Positions 27,961 to 61,521 of a DNA stretch of 64,000 nt are shown here, piece by piece. The notes under the pieces are model-generated. The model searched no databases and was not told where the DNA came from. It saw only the letters and a list, made by a program, of their open reading frames with translations. The first letter of the stretch is position 1, and each line of letters starts with the position of its first letter. The stretch covers positions 23,060-87,059 of IMG/VR virus record IMGVR_UViG_3300036770_007034; one strand, written 5' to 3'. The position numbers were made by a program, and so were the translations under genes. This DNA is from a virus.

Positions 27961-28933
27961 TCCAGATGTAGTACTGAGCTACCTAAGTTCAAACATCACT
28001 GATGCAGACTGGCGTATAATCTCAGTGAGAACTTTGCTAGAGCAGTGGCCAGAGATAGAAAAACAATTATCTCAAGGTCAGATTACAGCGGTGGAGAAAA
28101 CCGACGAAGGAGTGACTACACTTTGGCATATAGTGACCAATGTCCAGTATGCTCCTTGGATCCGTTCCGGGCAACTACGACTAATAACTAGCAGTGATGC
28201 TGATTCCAGCATTTCAAATTTCAATGCCGAACATTTCCTAGCAGCCACGATCGGTAGCCAAGAAGTTCGTTTGCCGCTGACATATACCGATCAAGCAAGG
28301 CCTTATACTTTTCTTTTCCCTAACAGAAAGATAAGACCACATCGTAGATATCTCATATTGGAATTACAAAAAAGAATGTTGCTGGATCGCGCTCTCTGGA
28401 GCTGCCTCAAAGGGCATAACACACAAGGACATCCAGAACATACTCGTGTTTATGCAGATGGAATCAGTATGCCAGTAAAGAAGCTGGATGAAGGATATGA
28501 TCCAGCGATCGCACCGGACTGGATAGATGGTGTGATATATCCCCAACAGTATCAACACACTTGGTTTACATTGGTATCAGAAACTGCGTTCGAATATCCT
28601 TACAGTTTCCGTACTGAAAAAATCTGGAAACCCATACTAGCAGGACATCCATTCTTGGTTTGTGCCAACACAGGATTCTATAAAGATCTGCGAAACCTGG
28701 GATTCAGGACATTTGATCGGTTGATTGATGAGTCATTTGATAGTATAATAGATGGTAAGGATCGTCTAGATCGCTTGATTGATACTGTGGCCTGGTTATG
28801 CCAACAAGATCTTGCCGAATTCTGGCGAGCCTCGCGAGAAGTGTGTTTATATAATCACCAACGTGCTTTGGAACTACATAATAGTCTTGCTCAAAATTTT
28901 ACTTCCCGACTACTGGAATTCATGAATGCCTAG
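27944..28933 (+). CDS. GT10-like glycosyltransferase, paralogue B
   Basis: About 329 residues from the ATG at 27944 (MPTTIDPDVV); an ATG 27 bases further upstream is possible but lies deeper in the previous gene. The diagnostic C-terminal block is FTLVSETAFEY..SFRTEK, IWKPILAGHPFLVCAN and LRNLGFRTFDRLIDESFD, matching paralogue A. It is again followed by a radical SAM gene, so 25551-27960 and 27944-30278 look like two copies of a GT10-like plus radical SAM unit. Confidence 0.7.
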   Translation: MPTTIDPDVVLSYLSSNITDADWRIISVRTLLEQWPEIEKQLSQGQITAVEKTDEGVTTLWHIVTNVQYAPWIRSGQLRLITSSDADSSISNFNAEHFLAATIGSQEVRLPLTYTDQARPYTFLFPNRKIRPHRRYLILELQKRMLLDRALWSCLKGHNTQGHPEHTRVYADGISMPVKKLDEGYDPAIAPDWIDGVIYPQQYQHTWFTLVSETAFEYPYSFRTEKIWKPILAGHPFLVCANTGFYKDLRNLGFRTFDRLIDESFDSIIDGKDRLDRLIDTVAWLCQQDLAEFWRASREVCLYNHQRALELHNSLAQNFTSRLLEFMNA

Positions 28934-30278: not shown

Positions 30279-31612
30279 ACAAAGACAATAATCTCAGTAA
30301 TTACAACTGGAAAGATCGTGTGCCCACTTATATCGGCCTCGATCAGCTCTCTGAGCAACAACAACACAGGTTGATGCACAGCGACAGCTTCTGCATGTTG
30401 CCGTGGATCCACTTACACGCATGGCCCGACGGCAGAGCTTATCCGTGCTGTTTAGGTAATGCTTCATTTCCTGTAGGCGACTTCAAACAAAAGTCCATGC
30501 GCGAGATCTGGAACGACACAGACATGCGAGAGATGCGTCTGAACATGTTGAACGATCGTCCGTGCCGCCAATGTAGTGATTGCTATGAGCAAGAGTCTGC
30601 TGGATTCGCCAGCATGCGCAACAACTCCAACAAGAACTTTGGCCAGCACATTGAATTGATTGACGAAACTCTGCCGGATGGATCTTTGCCAGACATGCGC
30701 CTGCATTACTGGGACGTGAGATTCTCCAACATCTGCAATCTCAAATGCCGTAGCTGTGGGTCGATCTTTTCTAGCCGTTGGTATGACGATGATGTCAAGC
30801 TCTGGGGCAAAGCTCTGCGGCCTCGTGTACAGTTCGCTGGACGTCATGAAGAAGACGTGTGGGAGCAGATGCAAGAACACATTCCACATCTGGACCAGAT
30901 CTACTTTGCTGGTGGCGAACCTCTGATCATGGAAGAGCATAATCGTATCCTCAAGCTGTTGATTGAAAAAGGCAACACCAAAGTCAGATTGATCTATAAT
31001 ACCAATCTCACTGAATTGAAATACAAACGTGAAAGCGTGCTAGAGCTTTGGAAACATTTTCCACATGTATGCGTAGCTGCCAGCCTTGATGACATGGGTC
31101 CGCGAGCCGAAGTCATACGGTCGGGCACTGACTGGGCACAAGTAGAACAAAACATCCGCGATCTCAAACGCGAGTGCCCACATATAGATTTCATGATCTC
31201 TCCTACTTTGAGCATGATGAACATCTGGCACTTCGTTGATTTTCACAAGTACATGATCGAGCAAGGATTCATCGAACCCAAGGATCTCAATGTGAACATC
31301 CTTCAAGGACCACGTGGCTATCGCATAGACATGTTGCCAGCAGACATAAAGCAACGATTCCGCGCCCAGTTCGAAGAACACATTGAATGGCTGCAGGACA
31401 AGGATCCTATCCATCGAGCCATCGGCGGGTTTGAAGCTGCCATAAACTTCATGATGGCGCAGGACAACAGCGAATTGCTACCGGAGTTCTGGGAAACAGT
31501 GAATGAACTGGACTGGGCCCGCAGTGAATCATTGCTAGAAGTGGTGCCAGAACTTGAAGAGATTGTGCAATATCGTCCAGCATCCACTAGGATACCTCTC
31601 AAGAAAAAATGA
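30275..31612 (+). CDS. Twitch-type radical SAM protein 3
   Basis: About 445 residues from the ATG at 30275, which overlaps the upstream stop as ATGA; an in-frame ATG at 30260 is less likely. FCMLPWIHLHAWPDG with CC at AYPCCLG marks the second subtype. CNLKCRSC (CX3CX2C, about residues 153-160) sits in SNICNLKCRSCGSIFSSRW, with FAGGEPLIMEEH after it. CRQCSDCYEQE supplies extra N-terminal cysteines. It is the first of three consecutive genes of this subtype. Confidence 0.85.
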   Translation: MNKDNNLSNYNWKDRVPTYIGLDQLSEQQQHRLMHSDSFCMLPWIHLHAWPDGRAYPCCLGNASFPVGDFKQKSMREIWNDTDMREMRLNMLNDRPCRQCSDCYEQESAGFASMRNNSNKNFGQHIELIDETLPDGSLPDMRLHYWDVRFSNICNLKCRSCGSIFSSRWYDDDVKLWGKALRPRVQFAGRHEEDVWEQMQEHIPHLDQIYFAGGEPLIMEEHNRILKLLIEKGNTKVRLIYNTNLTELKYKRESVLELWKHFPHVCVAASLDDMGPRAEVIRSGTDWAQVEQNIRDLKRECPHIDFMISPTLSMMNIWHFVDFHKYMIEQGFIEPKDLNVNILQGPRGYRIDMLPADIKQRFRAQFEEHIEWLQDKDPIHRAIGGFEAAINFMMAQDNSELLPEFWETVNELDWARSESLLEVVPELEEIVQYRPASTRIPLKKK

Positions 31613-32820
31613 AAATACCCCACGATAAATTCTGTGTGTTGCCTTGGGTCAGCTTAGAGGCCAGTCCCATTGGTACAGTGAGACCTTGCTGTCTGGCCAT
31701 AGACGAGATAGTGGACGATCAAGGAGAAAAATTCCGCCTGGCAGGATCTTCGTTTGATGCCATACAGAACAGTCAGCACATGACTACCCTTCGGCAGGAG
31801 TTCCTTGATGGTAAACAGCCGCAGACTTGTCGCAGATGCTGGCAAGAAGAACGAGCTGGTCGCACATCAAAGCGTATGCATACATTAGATCGTCTCAAGC
31901 ATATGATAGATGATCGTCCATGGACCCAGGATGCCAAACCCTTGATGTTCTTAGATCTCAAGCTAGGCAACATCTGCAATCTCAAGTGCCGTATTTGCGG
32001 GTCGTGGTCTAGTTCTACATTCGCTACAGAAGAACTGAATTTTATCATCGATCGCGAAGAAAAGAAAACGAGTTTTCATTATCAGATGTTGCGTGATGGT
32101 GCTTGGCCCCGCAACAGCGATAACTTCTGGCATCAGCTAGATTCTGCCATGAGCGAAGTGCGCTACATTGAGTTCACTGGCGGCGAACCTTTTATGATCC
32201 GTGAGCACTTTGATCTTCTGCGCAGACTAGTGGATCGAGGATATGCGCATCAGATAGAAATACACTACAATACCAACGGCACACAGTACCCTGCTGAAGC
32301 CGAAGATATCTGGCGCCATTTCCGGCACGTGGAGATAGCATTCTCTATTGACGATGTGGGAGAGAGGTTTGAATACCAGCGTACCAATGCCGGCTGGGCG
32401 GAAGTGAATGAAAACATAGAACTCTTCCGTCGCATGAGATCACGCAATCGCAATATCACTCTGCAGGTGTGCTGTACAATCAACGTGTTCAATGTGATGT
32501 ATCTCGAAGATGTGGCTAACTGGATAGTCGAACAAGACTTTGATTTCATCTACTGGAACATGCTACATGATGCCTATTACTTCAGCATCGGAACTCTGCC
32601 AGAAAAGGCCAAACGTCTGGCCCAGCAGAGATTAGAACAAGCTCGCATACCAGAACAGTTCCGCGACGAATTTGCCAGGATCATTGACTTTATGAACAAC
32701 GGTGTGAGTCTAGATGGCAAGCTGTTGCGCATCAAAGCCCAAGACCTTGATTTCAAAAGGAAAGAGAGTCTGTCTACCGTGATGCCTGAACTGGCATCTT
32801 CCATAGACTATGAAGCCTGA
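31609..32820 (+). CDS. Twitch-type radical SAM protein 4
   Basis: A 403-residue protein starting at an ATGA overlap. FCVLPWVSLEASPIG and RPCCLA form the FCxxPW...CC N-terminus. CNLKCRIC (about residues 122-129) is the 4Fe-4S motif and FTGGEPFMIREH the SAM-binding motif. CRRCWQEERAG adds cysteines between them. It belongs to the same family as the upstream and downstream genes. Confidence 0.85.
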   Translation: MKIPHDKFCVLPWVSLEASPIGTVRPCCLAIDEIVDDQGEKFRLAGSSFDAIQNSQHMTTLRQEFLDGKQPQTCRRCWQEERAGRTSKRMHTLDRLKHMIDDRPWTQDAKPLMFLDLKLGNICNLKCRICGSWSSSTFATEELNFIIDREEKKTSFHYQMLRDGAWPRNSDNFWHQLDSAMSEVRYIEFTGGEPFMIREHFDLLRRLVDRGYAHQIEIHYNTNGTQYPAEAEDIWRHFRHVEIAFSIDDVGERFEYQRTNAGWAEVNENIELFRRMRSRNRNITLQVCCTINVFNVMYLEDVANWIVEQDFDFIYWNMLHDAYYFSIGTLPEKAKRLAQQRLEQARIPEQFRDEFARIIDFMNNGVSLDGKLLRIKAQDLDFKRKESLSTVMPELASSIDYEA

Positions 32821-34105
32821 CACACTATGTATGGCTCCCTGGACTCACACTTATCTGAGTCCTCAGACCGAGCGCCGTATGTGCTGTGCCAGCCGCGAGC
32901 CTGCGCAGAACTTCCAGCAGTACATTGATACCAAGGCCGGCACGGGTCAATATATCCCCATCACCTTAGAAGAACATTGGAACGGCGATCACATGCGATC
33001 GGTGCGCAGGCGTATGATGGCAGGAGAGACTTTACCAGAGTGCGATGTGTGCAATAGTAAATTATTGAACACCGATGTGTACCGCAGTTATTTCAATGGG
33101 TTGTTTGGACACAAGTATGAAGAAGCCATGCGCCAGACCGATCTAGATGGGCGCACTGACATGAAGCCGGTGAGCTGGGACTATCGCTTCTCGAATCTCT
33201 GCAATTTCAAATGTCGTATGTGCGGCGATATGTTGAGCAGTAGTTGGGAAAGCGAACAGCGCCAACACAACATGATCAACTGGGCGGATCCCAAAAACAA
33301 TTGGATGATTCCGTCAGTGCGTCGTGAAATAAGTAAGTTCCAAGACACCCAGATCGAAGCTGAGTTTGCAGAAGCAGTGGAAGAACACCGTGTGGAAGAG
33401 ATCTACTGGGTAGGCGGAGAACCGCTAATGTATGAGCAACACTGGCGATACATGCGACGTATCGTCGAGCTGGGCGATGGACCAAGACTATATGCTAGAT
33501 ATAATACTAATCTCAGTCGCGTGGATTATCGTGGCGTCAATCTTTATAGTGATATCCTTCGACATGTTAGGGACTGGCAGATCTGCGCCAGTCTCGACGG
33601 CACAGGAGCCACAGGAGAATACATCCGTACTGGACTTGACTATGATCAATGGCGAGAAAACTTTGCCCGAGGACTGGACATATCCCGCCATCGTAGGCAG
33701 ATGCGCATCGACTTCACACTCACTCTACCTGGACTATTTGAAGTGGGAAGAATACAAGAACTCGCCGACGAATTCCAAGTCGACATCCTAGCCAAGGTGA
33801 TCTTTGCTTTCAGTCCAGATATCGTCATGAGTCCTTTGGCCTTGCCTAGGTCAGTGCTAGATCGCAAGATCGACGAAGTACTCCGATCAGTATCTAGTCC
33901 GGCACTGCGAGATGTATTGGTGCAACTGAAGAATCGTCCCACGTTTGAGGAACAATGGCCGGATCAATGGAAAGCAGGCTTGATCAAAGGAAAGCAACGC
34001 ATAAAAACTCTCGAAAGCATACGTTCAGATACATACACATTCGAAGATATAATAAAGGAAGATACAGACATCTATGAGTGGTGGCAAAATATTAGATCAG
34101 ATTGA
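32810..34105 (+). CDS. Twitch-type radical SAM protein 5
   Basis: A 431-residue protein whose start lies inside the last codons of the previous gene. LCMAPWTHTYLSPQT and RRMCCAS form the subtype N-terminus. CNFKCRMC (about residues 130-137) binds the cluster and WVGGEPLMYEQH is the GGEP motif. CDVCNSK provides extra cysteines. It is the last of the four consecutive radical SAM genes before the carbamoyltransferase section. Confidence 0.85.
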   Translation: MKPDTLCMAPWTHTYLSPQTERRMCCASREPAQNFQQYIDTKAGTGQYIPITLEEHWNGDHMRSVRRRMMAGETLPECDVCNSKLLNTDVYRSYFNGLFGHKYEEAMRQTDLDGRTDMKPVSWDYRFSNLCNFKCRMCGDMLSSSWESEQRQHNMINWADPKNNWMIPSVRREISKFQDTQIEAEFAEAVEEHRVEEIYWVGGEPLMYEQHWRYMRRIVELGDGPRLYARYNTNLSRVDYRGVNLYSDILRHVRDWQICASLDGTGATGEYIRTGLDYDQWRENFARGLDISRHRRQMRIDFTLTLPGLFEVGRIQELADEFQVDILAKVIFAFSPDIVMSPLALPRSVLDRKIDEVLRSVSSPALRDVLVQLKNRPTFEEQWPDQWKAGLIKGKQRIKTLESIRSDTYTFEDIIKEDTDIYEWWQNIRSD

Positions 34106-35168: not shown

Positions 35169-35266
35169 AATGGATACGCAATCTTATAAACAAAATCAAG
35201 TTAGAAATACGCTATCGCAAGAAGCTAAAAGAACTGCGCAAACGAGATCCTTTTATCTATAAATGA
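35165..35266 (+). CDS. Very small basic protein (33 aa)
   Basis: An ATG at 35165 with an excellent ribosome binding site (AAAGGAAG) opens 33 codons ending in RKRDPFIYK, with TGA overlapping the carbamoyltransferase ATG (ATGA). The product is strongly basic and amphipathic (MKWIRNLINKIKLEIRYRKK). Similar tiny proteins ending KRDPFIY(K) occur in other T4-like phages, from memory. It may work as a protein or simply couple ribosomes to the next gene, which has no ribosome binding site of its own. Confidence 0.7.
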   Translation: MKWIRNLINKIKLEIRYRKKLKELRKRDPFIYK

Positions 35267-36747
35267 AACACATACTAGGTATCAGTGCTGGGTTCCATGA
35301 CGCGGCTGTGAGTGTGGTACGCGAAGATGGAGAGATCGTTTTCGCTGGGCATTCTGAACGCTACAGCAAGATCAAGAATGATCCCACGATACATCCTGAT
35401 CTCTTGAAGGAATGTTGCGATTATGAGTTTGACACCGTGGCGTTCTACGAGCGTCCGTGGATGCACAACTATCAGCAATGGCGTAGTGGACAAAAGGCCT
35501 ATGGTTCCTGGACTACCCGCCAAGCTATCCGTCAGCATCTAGGCGAGTGGTATCAACATCCTGCACGCCGAGAAGTCAGCTTCCGGCATCATCTCAGCCA
35601 TGCTGCCGCAGGATTCCAGACGAGTACATTTGACAATGCCGCTGTTGTAGTGATCGATGCCATTGGAGAGATGGATACTATCTCCATCTATTCTGCCGGA
35701 TACTCACACGACGGCAACGCTCAATATAATCTCGTATGGCGTCAAGGATACCCACACAGCATTGGGTTGTTTTACTCAGCGATAACAAAAGCCGTGGGAC
35801 TCAAACCCATGGAGGAAGAATACATCACCATGGGCATGGCTGCTTATGGTACCGACCTTGGCACTGCCTGGATGCGAGATCAGTTTGTCGAGGATGTTGA
35901 AACAGCCCGGTTCAAACAAAACTTGCACATCGGATTTGACGAATACGATCTGAGTTTCACCCATGCCGAAGACATTGCCGCGTCTGCACAAAGACTCACA
36001 GAAGAGCTGATCATGAACATCATACGTCGAGCCAGGCAAATGATCAACAGCGACAATCTCGTCTACATGGGAGGTGTAGCACTCAACTGTGTAGCGAACA
36101 CTAGACTAGGACAGATATATGACAAAATATGGATCATGCCGAACCCGGGCGATGCGGGTTCCAGCCTTGGCGCAGCCGCGCTGGCTTACAGGAAACGGCT
36201 TTGCTGGCGCGATGCTTTTCTTGGCCACGATATTGCTGGCCCTTACCCTGTTCGCGACATTCTTGATCGTCTTATTACCCATCGCATTGTTGGTGTGGCT
36301 AGTGGGCGTAGTGAATTCGGTCCACGAGCACTTGGAAACCGAAGTTTATTGGCCGATCCCCGAGGACCAGACATCAAAGATCGAGTCAACGAAATCAAAA
36401 GACGACAAAAATTCCGTCCCTTCGCACCCGTCATACTAGAAGAAGTGGCTGATGATTATTTTGAAATGCCCCAAGGTTGGGCACGTAGTGATTACATGCA
36501 GATGGTAGCCAGAGTACGCAGACCGGATCTTTATCCTGCTATCACACATGCAGATGGTACAGCCCGAGTACAGACCGTCCCTCCAGGAGATAGTGGTATC
36601 CGTAGATTACTCGAAGAGTGGTATGTACTGACAGGATGTCCAATGTTGCTCAATACTTCGTTGAACATTCGAGGCGAACCCATGGTCGATGATCGTGCTG
36701 ATGCTGATCGATTTGAAAAACTATATGGCGTGGCCGTCTGTAGCTAA
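35263..36747 (+). CDS. Carbamoyltransferase (NodU/CmcH family)
   Basis: A 494-residue protein of usual family size. The N-terminus KHILGISAGFHDAAVSVV is the ASKHA-type fold start. FRHHLSHAAAGF (about residues 107-118) contains the catalytic or metal-site histidines. MGGVALNCVANTRL and the C-terminal SGRSEFGPRALGNRSLLADPR are family signatures, and MLLNTSLNIRGEPMV is the last one. Family members transfer a carbamoyl group from carbamoyl phosphate to a hydroxyl of a sugar or antibiotic. In this operon a phage-made glycan is the likely acceptor (inference). The 3' end overlaps the convergent SGNH gene by 27 bases. Confidence 0.92.
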   Translation: MKHILGISAGFHDAAVSVVREDGEIVFAGHSERYSKIKNDPTIHPDLLKECCDYEFDTVAFYERPWMHNYQQWRSGQKAYGSWTTRQAIRQHLGEWYQHPARREVSFRHHLSHAAAGFQTSTFDNAAVVVIDAIGEMDTISIYSAGYSHDGNAQYNLVWRQGYPHSIGLFYSAITKAVGLKPMEEEYITMGMAAYGTDLGTAWMRDQFVEDVETARFKQNLHIGFDEYDLSFTHAEDIAASAQRLTEELIMNIIRRARQMINSDNLVYMGGVALNCVANTRLGQIYDKIWIMPNPGDAGSSLGAAALAYRKRLCWRDAFLGHDIAGPYPVRDILDRLITHRIVGVASGRSEFGPRALGNRSLLADPRGPDIKDRVNEIKRRQKFRPFAPVILEEVADDYFEMPQGWARSDYMQMVARVRRPDLYPAITHADGTARVQTVPPGDSGIRRLLEEWYVLTGCPMLLNTSLNIRGEPMVDDRADADRFEKLYGVAVCS

Positions 36748-47223: not shown

Positions 47224-48501
47224 TTATGCCTGCTCTTCGTATAATGCCCAAGTACCAAAGGGCGGATTAGGATTACGATCACCATGGATGATCCATACCG
47301 TGTCGCAATAGTGTTCATCGCCCCACGACCCAAACGGATAACCGTCTGTGAACACTACCAGGCGCTTGGGTTCGATCTGTTCATCCTTGAGATGATGGAA
47401 TATAGCATCAAAGTCGGTACCGCCGCCGCCCTGGAGATCATACTCAAGTATGGAATCCAAGTTGTCGGAATTGAAATCCTGTGGGTTATACACTTGGGTA
47501 TCGAACGTGAACAGGTGGATACGATAACTGTCAAATGCCTCCATGATGCCTCGGACTTCGCTCAGGAAGTCTCGACCCTGTATATCAGAGATCGAACCAC
47601 TCATGTCGATAGCGATAGCAATATCAATGGCTTCGGTATTGCGCATACCTGGCATGACTGCATCCATGTGCCATCCGCGACGGCTGGTCTTCATCCAGGT
47701 ATAATCACTCTTGATCGTTGACTCCAATTGCATTCGGAGCAGTTCGCGCCAGTTCATCTTGGGATCAGTGAGATCCTGGATCATGCGTTTCACGCCAGCT
47801 GGAATATTGCCTGCATCACTTGCCTGTGCCGCGGCTAGCATGGCTTCCTTGATCTCGTCCTTGATCTTCTGGCGCTCTTCGGCACTGAGCTTGGGACGGC
47901 CTTTACCATTTTTGCCATCACCATCGCCCTCGCCTTGGCTATCGCCATCCAAGTGCTCGTCTAACACTCGATCTAAGAGATCTGCAAGACTGATCTTTTC
48001 GGCGTTCTCATAGAGATCGTCATAGACTTCTTCGGAACTCTTGCCTTCGTATTTCTGATCATAAAGGCAAGGCACTGACGTGATGAACTCGCCCACACGG
48101 TGTTTCTTGAGATCGCCGTTGACACAAAAGTCATTGGCGATGTTCCAGAGTTGAGGATCGCGATCTCCTCTGCGACCAAAGTGGTCATACACACAATGCA
48201 AAACCTCGTGTCCAAACAGGAACTCAATCTCTTTGGGTTTCAGCATCTCGATGAAACGAGTATTGTAATAGAAGTGGCGACCATCTGTAGCGGCCGTGGA
48301 GCACCATTCATCGGCATTGATCAGTTTGAGTCGGGTAGCCAGGTTGCCAAAGAAACTGGCACGGAGCAACAGACCCACACGGGCGGTGACCAATTTTTCA
48401 CGAACCACGCGATCCAGTTTGGGATCGGTGGGGCCCAAGAGATCAGCGAACTTTTTGGCGTCGTCTTTGTTCTGGGTATTAGCGGCAGTTGCAGTTGTCA
48501 T
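47224..48501 (-). CDS. VWA-domain metallopeptidase-like protein (DUF2201 type)
   Basis: A 425-residue protein. HEVLHCVYDH at about residues 98-107 is an HExxHxxxxH zinc motif. The middle is an acidic, Gly/Asp-rich linker (GDSQGEGDGDGKNGKG). The C-terminal third is a von Willebrand A-like fold with the MIDAS-type DMSGSIS near residue 298 and GGGTDFDAIF further on. Such proteins pair with MoxR AAA ATPases; one is encoded at 49169. GGAG lies at suitable distance from the ATG. It has its own sigma70-type promoter and terminator, so it is a single transcription unit. Confidence 0.85.
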   Translation of the reverse strand: MTTATAANTQNKDDAKKFADLLGPTDPKLDRVVREKLVTARVGLLLRASFFGNLATRLKLINADEWCSTAATDGRHFYYNTRFIEMLKPKEIEFLFGHEVLHCVYDHFGRRGDRDPQLWNIANDFCVNGDLKKHRVGEFITSVPCLYDQKYEGKSSEEVYDDLYENAEKISLADLLDRVLDEHLDGDSQGEGDGDGKNGKGRPKLSAEERQKIKDEIKEAMLAAAQASDAGNIPAGVKRMIQDLTDPKMNWRELLRMQLESTIKSDYTWMKTSRRGWHMDAVMPGMRNTEAIDIAIAIDMSGSISDIQGRDFLSEVRGIMEAFDSYRIHLFTFDTQVYNPQDFNSDNLDSILEYDLQGGGGTDFDAIFHHLKDEQIEPKRLVVFTDGYPFGSWGDEHYCDTVWIIHGDRNPNPPFGTWALYEEQA

Positions 48502-48524
48502 GGATTCTCCTAACTATATCTATT

Positions 48525-48553
48525 ATTATACCGTTTTTGCATTTATTGGTCAA
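48525..48553 (-). promoter_or_regulatory. Sigma70-type promoter of the VWA gene
   Basis: TTGACC (48548-48553), 17-base spacer, TATAAT (48525-48530), embedded in the block GGTTGACCAATAA. The -35 box overlaps the stop region of the upstream gene. Confidence 0.9.
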
Positions 48554-48896
48554 CCGGGTATTTCAGCTGGAAAAGCGTGAGTTCTTGCGGGCTTTTCACG
48601 TAGATACGCAGGTCATCATATCCGTTGGTCCATGACCAGTAAGGATTCACAGCACCGGGCATTTCGGGCAAAGGGTTGGCTCCGACGTACATGTAAGGAT
48701 TAGAGTAATGTTTCTGGATATCCGACCACAAGCGTATTTCGGCACTCCAGCCATAGGTGTCAAAAAAGTATTGTTGGGCGACGGAAAAATTCTGCGGCCC
48801 TTTCCAATTGGTCATGCGATTGGAAAAGATTATGGCATATTCAAAATGCTGACGGTAGCTCCACCGTCCATCGAGTCGGACTATCTTGTATTTCAT
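48543..48896 (-). CDS. Conserved phage protein of unknown function (117 aa)
   Basis: The sequence is aromatic-rich (WSYRQHFEYAIIFSNRMTNW, QYFFDTYGWSAEIRLW, NPYWSWTNGYDDLRIYV). A pattern like this is common among short proteins next to MoxR/VWA genes in T4-like phages, though I cannot name the family. The 3' end FQLKYPVDQ overlaps the promoter of the VWA gene. Its start overlaps the stop of the gene upstream (ATGA). Confidence 0.65.
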   Translation of the reverse strand: MKYKIVRLDGRWSYRQHFEYAIIFSNRMTNWKGPQNFSVAQQYFFDTYGWSAEIRLWSDIQKHYSNPYMYVGANPLPEMPGAVNPYWSWTNGYDDLRIYVKSPQELTLFQLKYPVDQ

Positions 48897-49126
48897 CTTG
48901 AGTATTTAAGCCCGAATATCATGGCATCATTGGGATCGCGGAAAAAGAACTCCAATACCCAGACATTGTCATCTATGGTACCTATGTCAGGGCTACGATA
49001 GTACCACCGACCCTTGTCTCGTCCGAAATCTCGATAGACTTGGACTAGGAATTCTTGTACATCGTCGTGATCGTAGGGATCGAAAGTGATCCGTACGCTG
49101 TGAAAAGGTAGGGTGGGATCCGACAT
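48893..49126 (-). CDS. Conserved phage protein of unknown function (77 aa)
   Basis: The protein reads HSVRITFDPYDHDDVQEFL and ends WVLEFFFRDPNDAMIFGLKYS. It is related in style to the next gene, whose C-terminus is LTLFQLKYPV; both end in a DLR/WVL...(F/L)xLKY strand-helix unit. The two may be diverged duplicates. It lies in the MoxR-VWA interval, with no catalytic motif. Confidence 0.6.
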   Translation of the reverse strand: MSDPTLPFHSVRITFDPYDHDDVQEFLVQVYRDFGRDKGRWYYRSPDIGTIDDNVWVLEFFFRDPNDAMIFGLKYSR

Positions 49127-49168
49127 AGCCCTATGTCCCTCTCGGTATGGACCCCACCCTGTTGACTC

Positions 49169-50263
49169 TTAGGAGTTCTGAGAGGCTTGCAGGATGTACT
49201 TGCCGTACCGCTGATGGAACTCATCAAAGTTCTTGAGCTTGGTAGGCTGGAACGGCAGATTGTACGTGGTAAGCGCGATACGAGCACCCATCACCACAAG
49301 CTCAGTCTCAAAGTTATCCATCATGTAGCGGAAGAAATTATCCGACATAGAGTGGAACTCAGTGTCCTTGACCTTGCGCTCGATGGCATTCTTGAGCTCG
49401 TAGCACATGGAGATCACTAGGCTGTACATGGCTGAAACTTCTTTGACCTGTAGGTCCTTGACTTTGCCACTGAGGATCTCTTCGGGCTTGGGCATCTTGC
49501 TGGCGATCTTACGATGCGCCTGGAACTTCACTGCCAAGCCCTCGCCTACAGCACCCGCCACAAGATCGGTCAGAGTGTTCTCGTCGGTATCTTCGTCTTC
49601 CAACAGCTCGCTGACGAAAGTCCAAGAGCGTGGAGTAGCGAAAGAGCGGCTGGCACTCTTGGCATCGAAGTCGTAGAGGTCCTGCTTGGCGAAACTGAGA
49701 TAGCCAACCACGTCTTTATGAATGCCATTGTTCACGGCCCATTCTTGCCACACCGGAAAGTCTACTCGCATCTCCAAGTGTACGAAGCGGTTAGCCAGCG
49801 GAGTTGGCATGCGATATGTGACACCTTTATCGCTCTCGCGGTTGCCCGCGGCGATCATGACCACATTATCGGGTAGAACATACTTGCCCACACGACGGTT
49901 CAGCACCAGCTGATAGGCCGCACTCTGCACAGCCGGGGGAGCCGAATTCATCTCGTCCATGAACAAGACTACGATAGGATACTGGCTAGCAGTCTCTTCG
50001 TCGGGCAGTTCCACAGGAGGAGCCCAGTCCATTTTGCCGATCTCTTTGTTATAGAACGGGATACCACGGATGTCAGTTGGGTCCATCTGGCCGAGGCGCA
50101 GGTCGATCATCAACCCACCCAGGCTTTCAGTGATACCGGCAACCACTTCGGATTTACCGATGCCGGGAGGACCCCACAGGAACAACGGACGCTTCTTGGC
50201 GAAGCACTTCATGATCGATTTGCGGGCACCAACCGCGGTTACGGTGCGATGTTCTACGGACAT
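49169..50263 (-). CDS. MoxR-family AAA+ ATPase
   Basis: A 364-residue protein. GPPGIGKS at residues 31-38 is Walker A. VVLFMDEMN near residue 100 is Walker B, preceded by DPTDIRGIPFY (the MoxR family loop). AAGNRES serves as sensor 1 and PTPLANRFVHL carries the arginine finger region. ATPases of this family remodel targets together with VWA proteins, and a VWA metallopeptidase is encoded 668 bases downstream. AAGGAAGAG gives a good ribosome binding site and a dedicated promoter lies at 50302-50330. Confidence 0.92.
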   Translation of the reverse strand: MSVEHRTVTAVGARKSIMKCFAKKRPLFLWGPPGIGKSEVVAGITESLGGLMIDLRLGQMDPTDIRGIPFYNKEIGKMDWAPPVELPDEETASQYPIVVLFMDEMNSAPPAVQSAAYQLVLNRRVGKYVLPDNVVMIAAGNRESDKGVTYRMPTPLANRFVHLEMRVDFPVWQEWAVNNGIHKDVVGYLSFAKQDLYDFDAKSASRSFATPRSWTFVSELLEDEDTDENTLTDLVAGAVGEGLAVKFQAHRKIASKMPKPEEILSGKVKDLQVKEVSAMYSLVISMCYELKNAIERKVKDTEFHSMSDNFFRYMMDNFETELVVMGARIALTTYNLPFQPTKLKNFDEFHQRYGKYILQASQNS

Positions 50264-50781: not shown

Positions 50782-51711
50782 CTAGAAATCCACGCTTTCC
50801 AATCTGACTAAGAAACTGGTACGACGTTTGGTAGAATTATCGAGCTGGACTTGGTGCCAACAAGCCGGCGCCCACATGCGTAGTTCTTCGCTGAAAGTAT
50901 TTCCAGGAAATATAACTCCTTCGCTGGCCATCAAACGATGTCCTATCTCAACAGGTTCTGATTTTTTCAGCATATAAGTATCATCGAGATAATCTCTTAC
51001 ATGAAGCCCGGGCTCACTTTCATACAGTACCGCAGTCATCATGGATCCATCTATATGAGTATCGAGTATGGAGTTCATTTCTGGATGCCATCGATAGTCG
51101 ACGATTCTTATGGTAAGTCGTTTTTCAAATCCGGTAAGATCTACTCCTTTGGATTCGCAAACTTCTTTCAGGAATTGGTGCATCTTAGGGATCAACGAAT
51201 GAAGTCTTGACATCAATTCTGGGTTTTTAGTTTTGCTAAGATCAGATGCCATCTGCACCTGAGTCCATAACATCACATCTCGATAATAATGGCCGGTTAC
51301 TCCGTGCGTGGGTTCTTCGATCTCCCATATCCGGCTCTGATAAAATTCAATAAATTCTTCTATGTCTTTTTTGACCGGGGCGATATCAAAAAAGAAATAA
51401 GGCTTTTTGGGATCTGGAAACAGACCGCAGGGCCGATTGAAATATTCATAATCGTAATTCTGATCTACCGACACATTTTGATATCCATGACGGATCAGAG
51501 TGTCTGCGGCTCGTTCTGCGTAGCTCGGAGGCCCTCCATTGTCTACGATGACTAGTTCAGTGCTGTGATCAATACCAGAAAAGGTTTCCAGGATCTGCGC
51601 CTGGGTGGCATTGATTTTTTTATCGGATCGAGGAGATACGATGATGGGGATCGGAAGGTGTAGATCGTAAGGTACTTCTTTTCGAGGATTTATACTGATG
51701 TTCACTCTCAT
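50782..51711 (-). CDS. 2OG-Fe(II) oxygenase-like protein
   Basis: A 309-residue protein. The iron-binding HxD is in LDTHIDGSMMTAVLYE and is followed by the PGLHVRD strand. The distal His and the 2-oxoglutarate Arg lie in ACWHQVQLDNSTKRRTSFLVRLE, the order of the isopenicillin-N-synthase type. Such enzymes hydroxylate or oxidise small molecules or side chains using Fe(II), O2 and 2-oxoglutarate. The ATG overlaps the stop of the aminotransferase (ATGA), so the two probably act in one pathway. Confidence 0.8.
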   Translation of the reverse strand: MRVNISINPRKEVPYDLHLPIPIIVSPRSDKKINATQAQILETFSGIDHSTELVIVDNGGPPSYAERAADTLIRHGYQNVSVDQNYDYEYFNRPCGLFPDPKKPYFFFDIAPVKKDIEEFIEFYQSRIWEIEEPTHGVTGHYYRDVMLWTQVQMASDLSKTKNPELMSRLHSLIPKMHQFLKEVCESKGVDLTGFEKRLTIRIVDYRWHPEMNSILDTHIDGSMMTAVLYESEPGLHVRDYLDDTYMLKKSEPVEIGHRLMASEGVIFPGNTFSEELRMWAPACWHQVQLDNSTKRRTSFLVRLESVDF

Positions 51712-52805
51712 GATAGTGCTTCCTTCATATGTTGATAGAGGTATTCTAACTCTTCTTCGGATGTGTTTAGTGGTAGCATCAATCTGATGCTATCTCCTAA
51801 ACTCCGAGTTACCAATACTCCGTGCTCATAGCATGATCTCCATGCTTGTTCTGCTGTGAGATTTTTTAGATCTATCGCGACCATGTGTCCGTTGAATCGC
51901 ATAGCCTCTACTGTTGAAAGATCAGATAGATCGGAAAGATGGACTTTCACTGCACGGCGTGCCCGATTGAGATTTATAGTGGGTAGGATATCTAATACAC
52001 GATTAGCTACCGCACAACTCAATGCTGTGCCACCATACGTAGTACCGTGTCTCCCTAACACAAAATTATCTTTGAACAAACATGCCGATAGCGGCAGACC
52101 ATTAGCAAGTCCTTTGCTCAAGATCAGTATGTCAGGATCCAATCCTAGCTCTTTCATCACGCTGGGACCGCCGCATCTATAAAACCCGCACTGGCATTCA
52201 TCTGCTACGATGATGCATCCTGCTTGTTTGGCCCTATGATAGATATCAACTAACCAAGATTCTTCCAGTGCTCGACCGCCGCCCATGCCTAACACAGGTT
52301 CGATCAATACTGCCGATATGTTTTCAAAGTCGATATCATCGACGTTTGTATCTGCTGAAATGTGTATGGGATCGATGAAGCGTTTTTGTAGAGTTTCGTA
52401 AGTTCCGGGCCATTGGGTGATCATGGTCGTGATCAGACTGGTTCCATGGAAAGCACGATCTACGGTAGCTATCGTTCCAGGACGATTCCAAAGAGATATC
52501 TTGAGTGCCAGATCCATGGCCTCGCTACCAGTGGCATGGAAAAACACTTGATCCATGCCCGTGATATGACAAAGTCGTCGGGCTAATCTATCTCTTTCTA
52601 CTTCTCTCAATTGATTGCTGACTTGCCATAGATCAGAGACCTGCTGTTGGGCCACCTTCACTAGTTCAGGTTCGCAATGGCCCAACAGGTTTGACCCTAC
52701 TCCGTTTATGGCATCGAAATACCGACGGTCTTGGTCATCCCAGAGCCATACGCCTTGACCGCGTATGAACTCTGAGTCAAATCTCTGATAAAACGGGGTC
52801 AGCAT
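51708..52805 (-). CDS. Class III PLP-dependent aminotransferase
   Basis: About 365 residues from the ATG at 52805, which overlaps the symporter stop; a longer frame to 52844 would overlap it by 46 bases. FIRGQGVWLWDDQDRRYFDAINGVGSNLLGH is the family N-terminus. HATGSEAMDLALKIS binds the PLP phosphate, and VADECQCGFYRCG holds the ring aspartate. ILSKGLANGLPLSA contains the Schiff-base lysine. Members transfer amino groups to or from omega-amino acids, ornithine or diaminobutyrate. The place between transporter and 2OG oxygenase suggests processing of an imported amine or amino acid (inference). Confidence 0.92.
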   Translation of the reverse strand: MLTPFYQRFDSEFIRGQGVWLWDDQDRRYFDAINGVGSNLLGHCEPELVKVAQQQVSDLWQVSNQLREVERDRLARRLCHITGMDQVFFHATGSEAMDLALKISLWNRPGTIATVDRAFHGTSLITTMITQWPGTYETLQKRFIDPIHISADTNVDDIDFENISAVLIEPVLGMGGGRALEESWLVDIYHRAKQAGCIIVADECQCGFYRCGGPSVMKELGLDPDILILSKGLANGLPLSACLFKDNFVLGRHGTTYGGTALSCAVANRVLDILPTINLNRARRAVKVHLSDLSDLSTVEAMRFNGHMVAIDLKNLTAEQAWRSCYEHGVLVTRSLGDSIRLMLPLNTSEEELEYLYQHMKEALS

Positions 52806-54250
52806 GGGATATTGATAGGTTCTCTCTTTTGGCTGAATATCCAACTGAACACAAAGCTACCTAGGATAGCGATCAGTGTTCCTGTCAGGGCGATATCGGT
52901 GTTCTTGATCAAGCTGCCATACACAAAGGTCGGGATCCCTAGGATCAAGGCCAACAACATTCCTTGGAACAGACCTTTTTCAGTGAACCATTCTGGACGC
53001 AACACAGCGACCATGCTGGGCAGCCAAACACTGGCTCTCAGTGTGGCAAAGAACAGGAAGATATGCAACAGCGTGATTCCAGGAATAAACGCTATCCCGA
53101 TTCCCAGCACAGCCGCGATCACCATACCCCAACGTGCATAACTGATACTGGTCTGATCAGCGTCATCTGTTTTGAACTTCTTATAGATATCATGTCCTGC
53201 CATGCTGGCTACAGAAGAGAATTGGCTATCCAGCACTGATATGAGTCCAGCAAAAACAACGAACACGAACAGGATGCTGACCCAGCTAGGTAAGTATTGT
53301 GCGATCATGAATGCGTTGACCATCTGCTCTTGTCCTTTGGGTACCACGAGTTGGCTTCCTGCGGCCAAGAATCCCAACAGCCCCATGGCGATAGGAATCA
53401 CACCGTATATGATCGACCCTTGGGCGAACACACGGAACACGCTTTTCTTTGGTACAGAAAATGCTCGCTGATAGAATGCATTGTCTCCAAAAAATGCACC
53501 CATCTGGCCTAAGAACGTGGCCAGACCAAAAGTCACAAACACCACCCAGGCTTTGTCTGTACCGATGATCGATCCACCATCACCTTTGATACCGCCCAGT
53601 CCAGCTACCACTGTGTCCCATCCGTTGGTCACTGCCATCACGGAACCCACGATGAGTAATACTCCGAACCATACCATGATGATCTTGAATATCTCAGTGA
53701 TCACTGACGCTTTGAGTCCGCCACGGAAACTGTACAGCAAAGCGATAGCGGCCATCACAGGCACAGTCACGTAATAGTTCAAGCCAGTCAATAGTTCAAC
53801 GATTTTACCACCGGCCAATAGATTCAGTGCAAACACGCTCACGGCCAGCACTACCATCTCGAAGATGTAGATGTTTTGTACACGAGTGCTATACGTTTCT
53901 TTGATATAACTGGAGAATGTGAATCCATCAGGATAACGATCACGAAGTTTCTGTGCGAACCAGCCAAACAGCCAGTAGGTCAAGATGGCTCCGAATGAGA
54001 ACCAAAATAGTCCTACCAGTCCGTTGACATAGGCCTGCTGTGCGCTGATGAATAATCCAGCGGCCCAGAGCCACGCAGCCGCTACACTGAGGCTACCTTG
54101 ACCAGTAGACAGATCTCGCCGGCTCAGTAAGAATGCTTCTTTGGTCGAAGCATACCCTCGGCTGAAGTAACTGGTCAGTCCGTATACCACTAAGGCATAC
54201 ACCGCCAGGATGATGACCCCCATCATGGGGTCAAATAAGGGAAGTTGCAT
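52799..54250 (-). CDS. Sodium:solute symporter family transporter
   Basis: A 483-residue, very hydrophobic protein with about 12-13 membrane segments, starting after MQLPLFDPMM. SVAAAWLWAAGLFISAQQAYVNG matches the family N-terminal helix (A.W...GtFisa...yt.G), and LISVLDSQFSSVASMAGHDIYKK matches the late core signature of the SSS family. It should sit in the host inner membrane and move a solute with Na+; the substrate is unknown. Complete transporters of this family are rare in phages. The ATG lies in the end of the PP-loop gene. Confidence 0.92.
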   Translation of the reverse strand: MQLPLFDPMMGVIILAVYALVVYGLTSYFSRGYASTKEAFLLSRRDLSTGQGSLSVAAAWLWAAGLFISAQQAYVNGLVGLFWFSFGAILTYWLFGWFAQKLRDRYPDGFTFSSYIKETYSTRVQNIYIFEMVVLAVSVFALNLLAGGKIVELLTGLNYYVTVPVMAAIALLYSFRGGLKASVITEIFKIIMVWFGVLLIVGSVMAVTNGWDTVVAGLGGIKGDGGSIIGTDKAWVVFVTFGLATFLGQMGAFFGDNAFYQRAFSVPKKSVFRVFAQGSIIYGVIPIAMGLLGFLAAGSQLVVPKGQEQMVNAFMIAQYLPSWVSILFVFVVFAGLISVLDSQFSSVASMAGHDIYKKFKTDDADQTSISYARWGMVIAAVLGIGIAFIPGITLLHIFLFFATLRASVWLPSMVAVLRPEWFTEKGLFQGMLLALILGIPTFVYGSLIKNTDIALTGTLIAILGSFVFSWIFSQKREPINIPC

Positions 54251-55575: not shown

Positions 55576-56820
55576 TTACAAATATGGTAAAATTCCAGGA
55601 ACTAGATCGCCTAGTTTTTTAGGCCTGATAGTATCGTAGGCCCGTATGATTTCTTTGGCTCGCTCCCACTGTGCAGGGTCTCTGTCCTGCCGGAGACGAT
55701 TGATCACTCCTAGCACAGCGTTATTCCTGTAAGCAGTCCTATCATACTTGTCAGACATCACATATGTCTGATCTGGCAACCATTGAGATAACTCGTCGAT
55801 CATCCGTTGTTTGTATTCATCGGGTAGATGCTGTATGGCCAGTTCATCCGGGTAGGTAAGACATTGTATGCTATGCCCTGCAGATTTTTTTTCAGCCCAT
55901 CTGATCACATCGGGCAGGCCCCCGAGTCCGAGGCTGTAAACTGTAGTGTGTATGACACAGTGTTGGAAATTATCAAGGAGGTTATCTATTATGACTTCTT
56001 TTTTCTTCCAGTTTGTGGGATATCTAAGGTACTCGTCCAGCGCATCGTGCCCGTCCACACTGATTTCAAAATTCACCTGCTGGAAGGGTTTCAACGCATC
56101 GATGAATTCCGGCTTGATGTTTACAGCATTGGTGATGATAAAAATAGTGGTATGAGATGCGTATCCTTGCTCGGCGTACCATCTCAGGAATTCCAGCAAA
56201 GGGCGGCTGATGCTGGGTTCTCCGCCCTGCACCCGTATCCATCTTACATTGGGTCCTATGTCCTTCACTCTCTGCCAGAGGCTGATATCGTGTTGCTTTT
56301 CATCATGCAACATATCCTGTTGCATGATTATGCGTCGATTCTTGGTGTTAGGATCCCAACCTAACTTTTCATAATCTTTTAGGATGCTACGACTATAGCT
56401 AGGAGCACAATCTATGCATCTCAATTGACATAGATTTCCCACGCTGAAAAACAATCCAGTGACCGGAGCTTCAGTATGTCCGTCAGCAGAAGTCTGGGCC
56501 AGAGTTTGTTCGATGATCGGATCACCTATGTTTATATCTGCCTTTCCATAATATTGTTGATTCCTACGCAGACGTCCGCTGACTTTGCCGGCCGCTTCAT
56601 CCTTCCAGCAATGACGGCATTGTTCAAGTTGGTGTCCGTCGACGAAACTACGACGCACACCTTTCATGTAATCGCTGTTCCAGTGCTGTGCTATCTCTTG
56701 CTTTATAGGTACTCTGTGAGTGTTCAGATTCTGATCTTCCATGCAACACAGTCCATAGGTACCATTGCTAGTGATATACAGTTCATTCCAGGGCACAGCG
56801 CAGAATTTTTTTTGATCCAT
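55576..56820 (-). CDS. Twitch-type radical SAM protein 6
   Basis: About 414 residues from the ATG at 56820 (MDQKKFCAVPWNELY), five bases after the previous stop; the open frame further upstream overlaps that gene and lacks family sequence. FCAVPW and GLCCMED form the N-terminal subtype signature, and CRHCWKDEAAG adds cysteines. CQLRCIDC (CX3CX2C) at about residues 129-136 binds the cluster, and VQGGEPSISR the SAM. It matches proteins 3, 4 and 5 in layout but sits in the metabolic module, 21 kb away from them. Confidence 0.85.
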   Translation of the reverse strand: MDQKKFCAVPWNELYITSNGTYGLCCMEDQNLNTHRVPIKQEIAQHWNSDYMKGVRRSFVDGHQLEQCRHCWKDEAAGKVSGRLRRNQQYYGKADINIGDPIIEQTLAQTSADGHTEAPVTGLFFSVGNLCQLRCIDCAPSYSRSILKDYEKLGWDPNTKNRRIIMQQDMLHDEKQHDISLWQRVKDIGPNVRWIRVQGGEPSISRPLLEFLRWYAEQGYASHTTIFIITNAVNIKPEFIDALKPFQQVNFEISVDGHDALDEYLRYPTNWKKKEVIIDNLLDNFQHCVIHTTVYSLGLGGLPDVIRWAEKKSAGHSIQCLTYPDELAIQHLPDEYKQRMIDELSQWLPDQTYVMSDKYDRTAYRNNAVLGVINRLRQDRDPAQWERAKEIIRAYDTIRPKKLGDLVPGILPYL

Positions 56821-56824
56821 GATG

Positions 56825-57406
56825 TTATCTATCTGAAAAGTAAGTGAACAGTATACTTTCTCGGCTGGCACCGACAGGAACACGTCGGGTACCATGGGCT
56901 TTTTTGACTCGGTTATCATTGATATAACCAGCGTTGGGCGCATAACGAGTTTCCACAGTCGGTAAATTTCCGATATCTACTATGCTATCAGTTCCGTGTT
57001 TTTCCAATAGAGATGCGTTTTGATCTCCGATGTACCAATGTGTGCCCATGTTAGGTTGAGCTACATCACCGCAGTAGACCTGCAGGAGTATGTCATAATT
57101 GTTGTGATCGAAATGCCAAGTGAGTTGATGACCAGGAAGATCCACAAATATGGTCTGGTCGTGTGGGCGTAGTCTTTGCCCGGTGAGTTCGCTGACAGCG
57201 AGATTGATGTCCAGCGCCACTTCTTGGAGATAGTGGTAGTCTGGATTATTGGGTAGGCTCATGAGCCTGTTGGGAGAAAGGCACTGCCACCCTGTGGCAG
57301 TCTCTCGATAACATCGACGTATCTCTCGATAGGTCGGTAAGTCAAAGACCTGCGGAAGGTACCATAGTCTCTGACCCAGATGTTCTGCTGATTCTGTGTG
57401 GATCAT
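56825..57406 (-). CDS. 2OG-Fe(II) oxygenase-like protein (193 aa)
   Basis: HxD is in LTWHFDHNNYDILLQVYC (around residue 98), a common motif order in phage oxygenases. The distal His and Arg are in KKAHGTRRVPVGASRESILFTYF at the C-terminus. The protein is about the length of the short, single-domain members that hydroxylate free or peptidyl amino acids. The ATG overlaps the stop of the small gene before it (ATGA), and the stop is four bases before the radical SAM gene. Confidence 0.75.
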   Translation of the reverse strand: MIHTESAEHLGQRLWYLPQVFDLPTYREIRRCYRETATGWQCLSPNRLMSLPNNPDYHYLQEVALDINLAVSELTGQRLRPHDQTIFVDLPGHQLTWHFDHNNYDILLQVYCGDVAQPNMGTHWYIGDQNASLLEKHGTDSIVDIGNLPTVETRYAPNAGYINDNRVKKAHGTRRVPVGASRESILFTYFSDR

Positions 57407-59587: not shown

Positions 59588-60005
59588 TCTGTATTCATGC
59601 CGCTTACGATTATGCGGCGTCTGTGTTGATGCTCGTATTCGCCTCTGCGATGTAGAGGACAGGAGTCGTAATCCTGTCATGCAGAGCACAGAGACTAGCC
59701 CAGACCGATTTAGTTTGTGGCAGTGAGTGGCTCCTGGATTTACGAAATACATAACACCAGGAATTCTATTGATCAGCATCACTGTTTGATCCACATTGAT
59801 TTGGGTACTACCGTGTGTTTGAGATCCGCACACTGATCGCTCAGCTAGAGCCGTTTTCCAGACGACGCACAGATCCCCAGAGGCATGTTTATCCGCCCGC
59901 CAGCGGTCCGGTCCAATAACGACTACAGCGGCCCTGGGTCGTCTACTCCCTTGGTAGTTAGGGTATTGCTTGCGAGGCTTTCTTTCGCTCACACCCAAAC
60001 CAATA
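59588..60005 (-). ncRNA. Structured non-coding RNA region (5' segment)
   Basis: About 420 bases without a convincing gene. Minus-strand hairpins include CTCTGC/GCAGAG enclosing GACAGGA/TCCTGTC, GCCGC/GCGGC, TCCTGG/CCAGGA, GATCA/TGATC, GTGTG/CACAC and ACGAC/GTCGT. A 140-codon frame (59576-59998) runs through it and into tRNA-Met and is rejected. It probably is a large structured RNA interrupted by, or next to, tRNA genes. Confidence 0.6.
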
Positions 60006-60080
60006 TGGTACTCGGTAGGGGAATCGAACCCCTCTTCCCGCCGTGAAAGGGCGGTGTCCTAACCGATAGACGAACCGAGC
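60006..60080 (-). tRNA. tRNA-Glu(UUC)
   Basis: Anticodon loop CTTTCAC, 7-bp acceptor GCTCGGT/ACCGAGT, encoded CCA. A strong promoter lies 33 bases upstream. Confidence 0.95.
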
Positions 60081-60113
60081 ATGGAATACTTGTATTTTTA
60101 AAGAACAACTTGT

Positions 60114-60142
60114 ATTATATAGAAAAAGAAATTGAAAGTCAA
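60114..60142 (-). promoter_or_regulatory. Sigma70-type promoter of the tRNA-Glu / structured RNA region
   Basis: TTGACT (60137-60142), 17-base spacer, TATAAT (60114-60119). Confidence 0.88.
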
Positions 60143-60189
60143 CCAGGTGTTTGGGTGATAAGGAACACCTGGAAATCCTCATCTAACCG

Positions 60190-60650
60190 ATCAAGCGGCT
60201 AGAGCGTAAACCTCATCATTGGCGTTTACTTTGTTTTGCTTCTACGGCCGGGAAGTCCCAACCCTAAGGGCTTCTGCTTTGCCCCGCTGTCCACTCCGCT
60301 ACTCCTTGCCCTGTCGAAACCATGTTCAGGCCCATCAAAAGCACACTGACTTGGTTATATGGGGTCTTTGAAGTTATCTCTTGATCCTTACGGACTACAC
60401 CCAAAGGTCAGTATGCTTATGGTGGACCTGCCGGGATTCGAACCCGGGTCCAGAACATATTTTACTTCGCTTCATACAGCGATAATGCCCGCATGGCCTT
60501 TCGGCTGACCCCTACTGTCTTGGGCGTTGTAGGCAGTTCACGAGCTTGCCAGGACATGTACGGAGCTCGCGTCTCCTGTGGCCTCTCACCACATCGACAG
60601 AACCAGCAGATGAATCAGTGCCACTGGGTGTATACTCCTGCGCAATAAAA
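60190..60650 (-). ncRNA. ssrA: Circularly permuted tmRNA
   Basis: Reading the minus strand, the acceptor piece comes first and ends CCCGGGTTCGAATCCCGG, then CAGGTCC-A-CCA (CCA at 60420-60422). After an intervening segment of about 86 bases (60334-60419) the coding piece starts at 60333 with GGGCCTG, which pairs over 7 bp with CAGGTCC. GGTTTCGACAGGG is the conserved tmRNA D-loop region. The tag frame (60194-60223) encodes ANDEVYALAA, then TGA at 60191-60193. A GGGC/GCCC pseudoknot-like stretch precedes the tag. The outer limits are approximate. This gives a two-piece tmRNA after processing, which rescues stalled ribosomes. Confidence 0.93.
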
Positions 60651-60651
60651 C

Positions 60652-60659
60652 TATTTATA
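60652..60659 (-). promoter_or_regulatory. T4-type late promoter upstream of the tmRNA
   Basis: A perfect TATAAATA on the minus strand in the short gap between tRNA-Ala and the tmRNA. Confidence 0.7.
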
Positions 60660-60662
60660 AAA

Positions 60663-60738
60663 TGGTGGAGCCGACAGGGATCGAACCTGCGACATTCTGC
60701 TTGCAAAGCAGACGCTCTCCCAACTGAGCTACGGCCCC
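60663..60738 (-). tRNA. tRNA-Ala(UGC)
   Basis: Anticodon loop TTTGCAA with stem TCTGC/GCAGA, acceptor GGGGCCG, encoded CCA. Confidence 0.95.
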
Positions 60739-61409: not shown

Positions 61410-61411
61410 AT

Positions 61412-61516
61412 GTTGTTCCCGAGACCCGGCTTACCCGCGACCGGGTAGTCATCACTAGCCCAGAGATGGATTCAGCACTCTGGGCGACCGGCTGTACTTA
61501 CTGCGATGACTGGAAC
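61412..61516 (-). ncRNA. Self-pairing spacer RNA 2 in the tRNA array
   Basis: Four nested or adjacent stems: GTTCC/GGAAC closing, AGTCATC/GATGACT, GCCCAGAG/CTCTGGGC and ACCCGG/CCGGGT. No tRNA or coding signature. Confidence 0.55.
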
Positions 61517-61521
61517 AAAGT

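Follow-up and report, generated by a model that had tools for sequence, protein, structure and literature searches.

A two-piece transfer-messenger RNA gene within the transfer RNA array of a jumbo phage

Does a phage that carries many transfer RNA (tRNA) genes also encode its own complete ribosome-rescue RNA, and what would such an RNA do during infection? This question is raised by a locus on the IMG/VR virus record IMGVR_UViG_3300036770_007034, an incomplete fragment of 87,059 bases, of which a stretch of 64,000 nucleotides (positions 23060-87059; hereafter the window) was analyzed. An earlier note, made from the sequence alone, had proposed a phage-borne, circularly permuted (two-piece) transfer-messenger RNA (tmRNA) at this place, with the acceptor half in front of the tag-coding half. 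The gene was identified here, with high confidence, as a real, well-formed and intact beta-type two-piece tmRNA of a jumbo phage. The note had found the right locus, while the strand had to be corrected to minus.

Identity and structure of the gene

A search with permuted tmRNA models had been suggested by the note as a check. Using cmscan, the Rfam family RF04321 (tmRNA_permuted) was matched at 60481-60191 on the minus strand with 115 bits (cut-off 47, E=1e-21) over model positions 1-213 of 213, and RF01850 (beta_tmRNA) was matched with 91.8 bits against a cut-off of 84 (E=2e-26). ARAGORN called a permuted tmRNA (tmRNA*) at 60100-60512 on the minus strand. The order of the halves can be read directly from the sequence and agrees with both programs: the acceptor half (P2 strand, T arm, CAGGUCC, A and CCA) is followed by a spacer of 86 nt and by the tag half (GGGCCUG, UGGUUUCGAC, P2 strands, two hairpins and the tag). 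A pattern describing the two halves matched once in the window and never in 100 shuffles. The complete tag ANDEVYALAA given in the note was recovered both by ARAGORN and from the frame GCC...TGA, which has an alanine resume codon, a stop codon and the hydrophobic -AA end.

For the analysis of the RNA structure, the window gene was aligned with 32 related IMG/VR genes (33 in total), and the pairs were named from the window alone. Double changes were found in 43 of the 61 pairs, and 87.3% of the alignment cells were paired, compared to 41-51% in the control in which the partner was slid by 1-3 columns. Covariation is strong in the acceptor stem, the T stem, both parts of P2 and a 12-bp helix in which the ends of the spacer pair; the two hairpins that precede the tag are supported as well. 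The features of the gene are as follows.

60476-60481, minus strand: first strand of the outer P2 helix, CGCUGU; 93% of cells paired, double changes in 4 of 6 pairs
60451-60457, minus strand: first strand of the inner P2 helix, UGUUCUG; 98.7% paired
60431-60447, minus strand: T stem and loop, CCGGG-UUCGAAU-CCCGG; 100% paired, double changes in 4 of 5 pairs
60420-60430, minus strand: acceptor 3' strand CAGGUCC, discriminator A and encoded CCA, the 3' end of the acceptor piece (cmscan, sequence and fold)
60334-60419, minus strand: intervening sequence of 86 nt that is presumably cut out; the 12-bp helix extending the acceptor stem arises from pairing of its two ends (60418-60407 with 60350-60339); 89% paired, double changes in 10 of 12 pairs
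60327-60333, minus strand: acceptor 5' strand GGGCCUG, the 5' end of the tag piece; third pair G.U
60313-60322, minus strand: D-loop-like UGGUUUCGAC, invariant in the 33 sequences, but demanded by the search patterns and so not independent
60307-60313, minus strand: second strand of the inner P2 helix, CAGGGCA (fold and covariation)
60285-60290, minus strand: second strand of the outer P2 helix, ACAGCG (fold and covariation)
60268-60284, minus strand: hairpin GGGC/GCCC in the interval from P2 to the tag; 94.7% paired
60246-60263, minus strand: second hairpin, GGUUGGG/CCCGGCC; some of the phage genes have it, and a test of four beta genes from cells did not find it
60191-60223, minus strand: tag reading frame GCC AAT GAT GAG GTT TAC GCT CTA GCC GCT TGA, coding for ANDEVYALAA and a stop, with the resume codon GCC (Ala) (ARAGORN and sequence)
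60143-60180, minus strand: candidate H-type pseudoknot 3' of the tag, GAGGA (60180-60176) with UCCUU (60164-60160) and CCAGGUGU (60172-60165) with ACACCUGG (60150-60143)

The acceptor stem, described in the note as a perfect 7-bp stem, pairs GGGCCTG (60333-60327) with CAGGTCC (60430-60424). All seven pairs are present, six of them Watson-Crick and the third a G.U wobble. Across the permutation 96% of the cells of this stem were paired, which supports the tRNA-like domain that the note had rebuilt from the two halves. The third pair (G3.U70) is G.U in all 33 genes and, in wider sets, in 120 of 120 genes (among the matches listed) and in 106 of 107. A G.U at this position is the pair read by alanyl-tRNA synthetase (AlaRS) in tRNA-Ala and tmRNA, where it serves as the alanine identity element. 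Since the ends of the spacer form a helix, the acceptor stem of the precursor would be longer and would hold the CCA in an internal loop; such a structure could be a good substrate for tRNA processing. A pseudoknot downstream of the tag is suggested by pairs that fit the window; 52-64% of their cells were paired, in a region that is poorly aligned.

A standard one-piece tmRNA was ruled out by the reversed order of the halves, and a chance tRNA beside a chance open reading frame by the E value of 1e-21 and the covariation.

Distribution, tags and relation to cellular genes

IMG/VR was scanned with three patterns, which gave at least 120, 108 and at least 120 stretches. A permuted tmRNA was called by ARAGORN in 320 of 331 extracted loci (a set that includes four cellular ones), and more than 300 two-piece phage tmRNAs were found in IMG/VR. 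The rarity implied by the note is not borne out, since such genes are very common in this database and have been published before, with 53 unique two-piece phage tmRNAs described (PMC9004378); the tmRNA database holds 79 phage tmRNAs of all forms (PMC11915505). The kind is already known, and the window gene is a further case of it.

Among isolate phages, no direct DNA similarity match to the window gene was found. Permuted tmRNAs were called by ARAGORN in the isolates Marzo, Ps15 and Bhz51 (Menderavirus), Rb1, QDWS359 and BUCT-ZZ01. Scores above the cut-off of RF04321 were obtained for Marzo, Rb1, QDWS359, BUCT-ZZ01, Tunturi_5 and Phosso, and this model gave no match in the jumbo relatives SCTP-2, Atu_ph07, XaC1, CBB and MIJ3. 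The permuted genes of Rb1, QDWS359 and BUCT-ZZ01 (loci L522, L523 and L524; Marzo is L521) are not so annotated in their records. The Tunturiibacter phage Tunturi_5, a phage of an acidobacterium, has an unannotated permuted tmRNA of 86.4 bits (L527 1466-1762). In Phosso, ARAGORN missed a permuted tmRNA of the alpha type at 349596-350198 (L530 1501-2103), the intervening sequence of which exceeds 400 nt.

The Menderavirus phages of Stenotrophomonas (Marzo, Bhz51 and Ps15) are similar to the window in that ARAGORN calls a permuted gene in all three and that it is located in a tRNA array, with 119 bits for RF04321 in Marzo. They differ by the tag VAANDDSYTVRIAA, a spacer of 56-57 nt and a separate position in the tree. 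The Sinorhizobium jumbo phage Phosso shares with the window phage the possession of a permuted tmRNA and is its closest isolate by the baseplate wedge protein (34.9% identity), whereas its tmRNA differs in the alpha type and the long spacer. Mycobacteriophage tmRNAs such as that of Lethe are probably standard one-piece genes. Mycobacteriophages of this sort are comparable to the window phage in encoding a tmRNA alongside many tRNAs (34 tRNAs and 1 tmRNA in Lethe; PMC13097058). The two-piece tmRNAs of the methylophage Melnitz and other marine phages (PMC9004378) are, like the window gene, permuted phage genes with a single precursor and a complete tag. The Melnitz gene is described as related to those of the Alphaproteobacteria, with a glutamine riboswitch, whereas the window gene belongs to the beta type, is part of a tRNA array and gave no Rfam riboswitch match.

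The tags of the related loci are diverse, with 155 different tags among the 320 genes read by ARAGORN, and 239 of the 320 end in LAA as in the window. The note had considered a phage-specific degradation tag. This does not hold for ANDEVYALAA, which was found in at least five other phage tmRNA loci and in gammaproteobacterial one-piece tmRNAs from assemblies of Xanthomonas, Lysobacterales and Thiomargarita.

Two groups of unusually long tags were observed as well. In 27 loci (L014, L015, L045, L047, L050, L058, L086, L094, L118, L372 and others) the tag is 27-33 amino acids long and follows the scheme ANADTFDFSAMSFTGNTV...ESRFALAA, in which a normal tag is preceded by an in-frame extension. 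The differences between these tags fall mostly on the third codon position (572/569/1326 by position), and coding selection on the extension is therefore suggested. A second family (L056, L051, L353, L411, L383, L386 and L485; for example VNAKTSTGEVTVSGKGVKFSARTAKATLAV) ends in LAV, FAV or AFA and not in LAA.

In bacteria, permuted tmRNAs were found in 137 of 399 sampled Pseudomonadota genomes and in 16 of 399 genomes of the order to which the beta-type genome G705 belongs. Searches of the gamma order and class gave mostly matches below the cut-off, which were discarded. The betaproteobacterial two-piece tmRNA (RF01850) and the window gene have in common the order of the halves, the tRNA-like domain, a short hairpin before the tag and a paired spacer; the pseudoknot suggested after the tag of the window gene would be a further similarity. 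The extracted cellular beta and gamma genes have spacers of 5-42 nt and only some of them encode the CCA, whereas the window gene has a spacer of 86 nt, encodes the CCA and has one more hairpin in front of the tag. Spacers of other phages range between 20 and 50 nt; those of the first phage set (70-100 nt) reflect the range with which the set was drawn. A long-spacer pattern, though a strict one, gave no match in the cellular genomes, as would be expected if the spacers of cells are short.

A tree built from about 225 columns placed the window gene in an all-phage clade (136 sequences, Shimodaira-Hasegawa (SH) support 0.954) and the cellular beta-type and gamma sequences that it included elsewhere among the phages. 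The phage set was drawn by window-like patterns (TGGTTTCGAC in all scans, the encoded CCA in one of three), the cellular sampling was thin, with several sequences lost at extraction, and the gene is short. The clade statement is limited to this sample, and the tree is therefore read only as follows: the window gene looks like no recent copy of a sampled cellular gene and appears to have been maintained by phages for long. That it belongs to a large, old and phage-only two-piece lineage of stable cargo, from which the scattered beta- and gammaproteobacterial genes may be derived and not the reverse, is a tentative and rather unlikely extension of this. A host tmRNA on a misassembled contig was ruled out by the phage structural genes across the contig together with the all-phage clade.

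Genomic context and candidate promoter

Phage structural genes are distributed across the fragment, among them a baseplate wedge gene (1031-4438), a portal gene and genes for virion proteins. The closest isolate homologues, with 32-35% identity, belong to Sinorhizobium phage Phosso, Salicola phage SCTP-2, Agrobacterium phage Atu_ph07 and others; the fragment is therefore part of a jumbo myophage. The location inside a tRNA array stated in the note was confirmed by ARAGORN, which detected 21 tRNA genes and the one permuted tmRNA between 57.6 and 64 kb of the window. The elements next to the gene are listed below.

60663-60738, minus strand: tRNA-Ala(TGC), directly upstream of the tmRNA (ARAGORN)
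60652-60659, minus strand: TATAAATA, candidate late promoter of the T4 type, close to tRNA-Ala on its downstream side; next come 4 nt (GTTT) and then TATTGC
60503-60646, minus strand: about 140 nt from the promoter-like motif to the tmRNA body; none of the related loci has a similar sequence, and the folding is unremarkable (z +1.4)
60114-60142, minus strand: sigma-70-like promoter TTGACT-17-TATAAT in the gap between the tmRNA and tRNA-Glu; consensus match only, 11 of 12
60006-60080, minus strand: tRNA-Glu(TTC), directly downstream of the tmRNA (ARAGORN)

The note had placed the gene apparently behind a T4-type late promoter. Two copies of TATAAATA were seen in the window with 2.0 expected, so that the count alone is at chance, and the distance from the copy in question to the acceptor half downstream of it is about 170 nt. 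In many relatives, TATTGC is the sequence with which the tmRNA starts, and TAAATA directly abuts this 5' end. A peak of TAAATA 51-60 nt before the T loop, i.e. at the RNA start, was found in 98 of 326 phage loci. In 46 of 328 loci, the RNA start, with TATTGC or a sequence very similar to it, comes 3-7 nt after the motif, mostly 4-5; in the background, the exact TATTGC follows at a spacing of 3-5 after 4 of 2351 TAAATA sites. Some of the TAAATA-bearing relatives also have a -35 box and resemble host-type promoters. On the plus strand of the contig, all four NATAAATA sites are CATAAATA, and three of these are located 24-57 nt upstream of virion or probable virion genes.

Alternatively, the tmRNA would have no late promoter of its own, and transcription that starts at an early or middle promoter would run through the tRNA array and produce it. 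This is possible, if on the doubtful side: the chance-level count of TATAAATA and its distance in the window, compared to the abutting motif of the relatives, speak for it, whereas CATAAATA before three virion or probable virion genes and the succession of TATAAATA, GTTT and TATTGC, which is like that of the relatives, speak against it. From the motif positions in the relatives and the sites before virion genes, a T4-type late promoter for the tmRNA is therefore plausible, with the distance of about 170 nt as the part that does not fit. It is as if the stretch of about 140 nt had been inserted between the motif and the tmRNA body.

Several other observations were made in the neighborhood. By neighboring genes, the closest tmRNA-bearing relative is L096, with which two proteins are common (72-78% identity). 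These are a VWA/metallopeptidase-like protein (47224-50263, minus strand) and a nearby AAA ATPase, also present in L049, which together look like a MoxR/VWA pair. A sodium:solute symporter (Pfam SSF, E=1.7e-25) is encoded at 52799-54250 (minus strand) of this phage contig, beside a class-III aminotransferase (51708-52844). Radical SAM proteins occur as four clustered and two elsewhere (26530-34105, plus strand; 55576-56943, minus strand; L122 10663-11625, minus strand), and a carbamoyltransferase (35263-36747) adjoins them. Within the array, the spacer between tRNA-Gln and tRNA-Thr (61410-61521, minus strand) has a closed multi-hairpin fold (z -2.8, equalled in stability by 2 of 200 shuffles); it matches nothing in Rfam and may be a new small RNA. 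The 418-nt spacer between tRNA-Glu and tRNA-Met (59588-60005, minus strand) contains long hairpins, with z -1.7 and no Rfam match.

Proposed role during infection

The gene very probably acts as an intact phage tmRNA of the beta type which is processed and charged by the host and rescues ribosomes during infection, most likely together with the host AlaRS, SmpB and ClpXP. In the precursor, the spacer ends would extend the acceptor stem, and host tRNA-processing enzymes would cut at the 5' G of GGGCCUG and after the CCA. The acceptor piece and the tag piece would stay joined through the acceptor and P2 helices, host AlaRS would charge the RNA via G3.U70, and host SmpB would deliver it to stalled ribosomes. 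Translation of the tag would begin at the resume codon GCC, and proteins ending in ANDEVYALAA would go to ClpXP. The benefit is most likely the same as for the surrounding tRNAs, namely that translation is sustained when mRNA breakage and codon stress stall ribosomes; confidence in this way of helping the phage is moderate.

Several points weigh against this role. A pseudoknot before the tag, which the note had expected, was sought by eye and not convincingly found, so that in the literal sense the expectation failed and only two tandem hairpins precede the tag; the Rfam beta model likewise has only a short hairpin there, and covariance models cannot hold pseudoknots. The 5' end of the tmRNA is ambiguous because of the insert-like stretch of 140 nt. 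No SmpB gene was found on the incomplete 87-kb fragment, and the phage tmRNA would therefore depend on host SmpB. Finally, only 1 of 80 loci near close homologues of the phosphoesterase adjoining the array has a tmRNA in the fetched flanks, many of which are short; the tmRNA therefore seems to be dispensable in this phage lineage, an optional cargo of the tRNA array.

The charged RNA could instead act mainly as a competitor of the host tmRNA, by its own tag or stability or by blunting host rescue. The diversity of phage tags is in favor of such a function, which is nevertheless improbable, as the tag frame and the LAA end are intact in the window, the same tag occurs in cellular tmRNAs and nothing indicates a dead tag. 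Less probable still is a functionless relic or recent host copy, for example one acquired at an attachment site: integration at ssrA is a known source of phage ssrA fragments (PMC9004378) and the presence among relatives is sporadic, whereas the gene is complete, lies between tRNA genes, groups with phage genes apart from the sampled cellular ones and shows compensatory changes which indicate structural selection on the phage copies.

With ribosome rescue through host partners as the preferred function, the analysis confirms that the gene set of a jumbo phage can include a ribosome-rescue RNA next to a large number of tRNAs. Among phages, the two-piece form is widespread as cargo, with a clade of its own in the sampled tree and candidate promoters of its own. 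Isolates with the same kind of gene, such as Marzo on Stenotrophomonas, offer a direct route to the question of why phages carry tmRNA.
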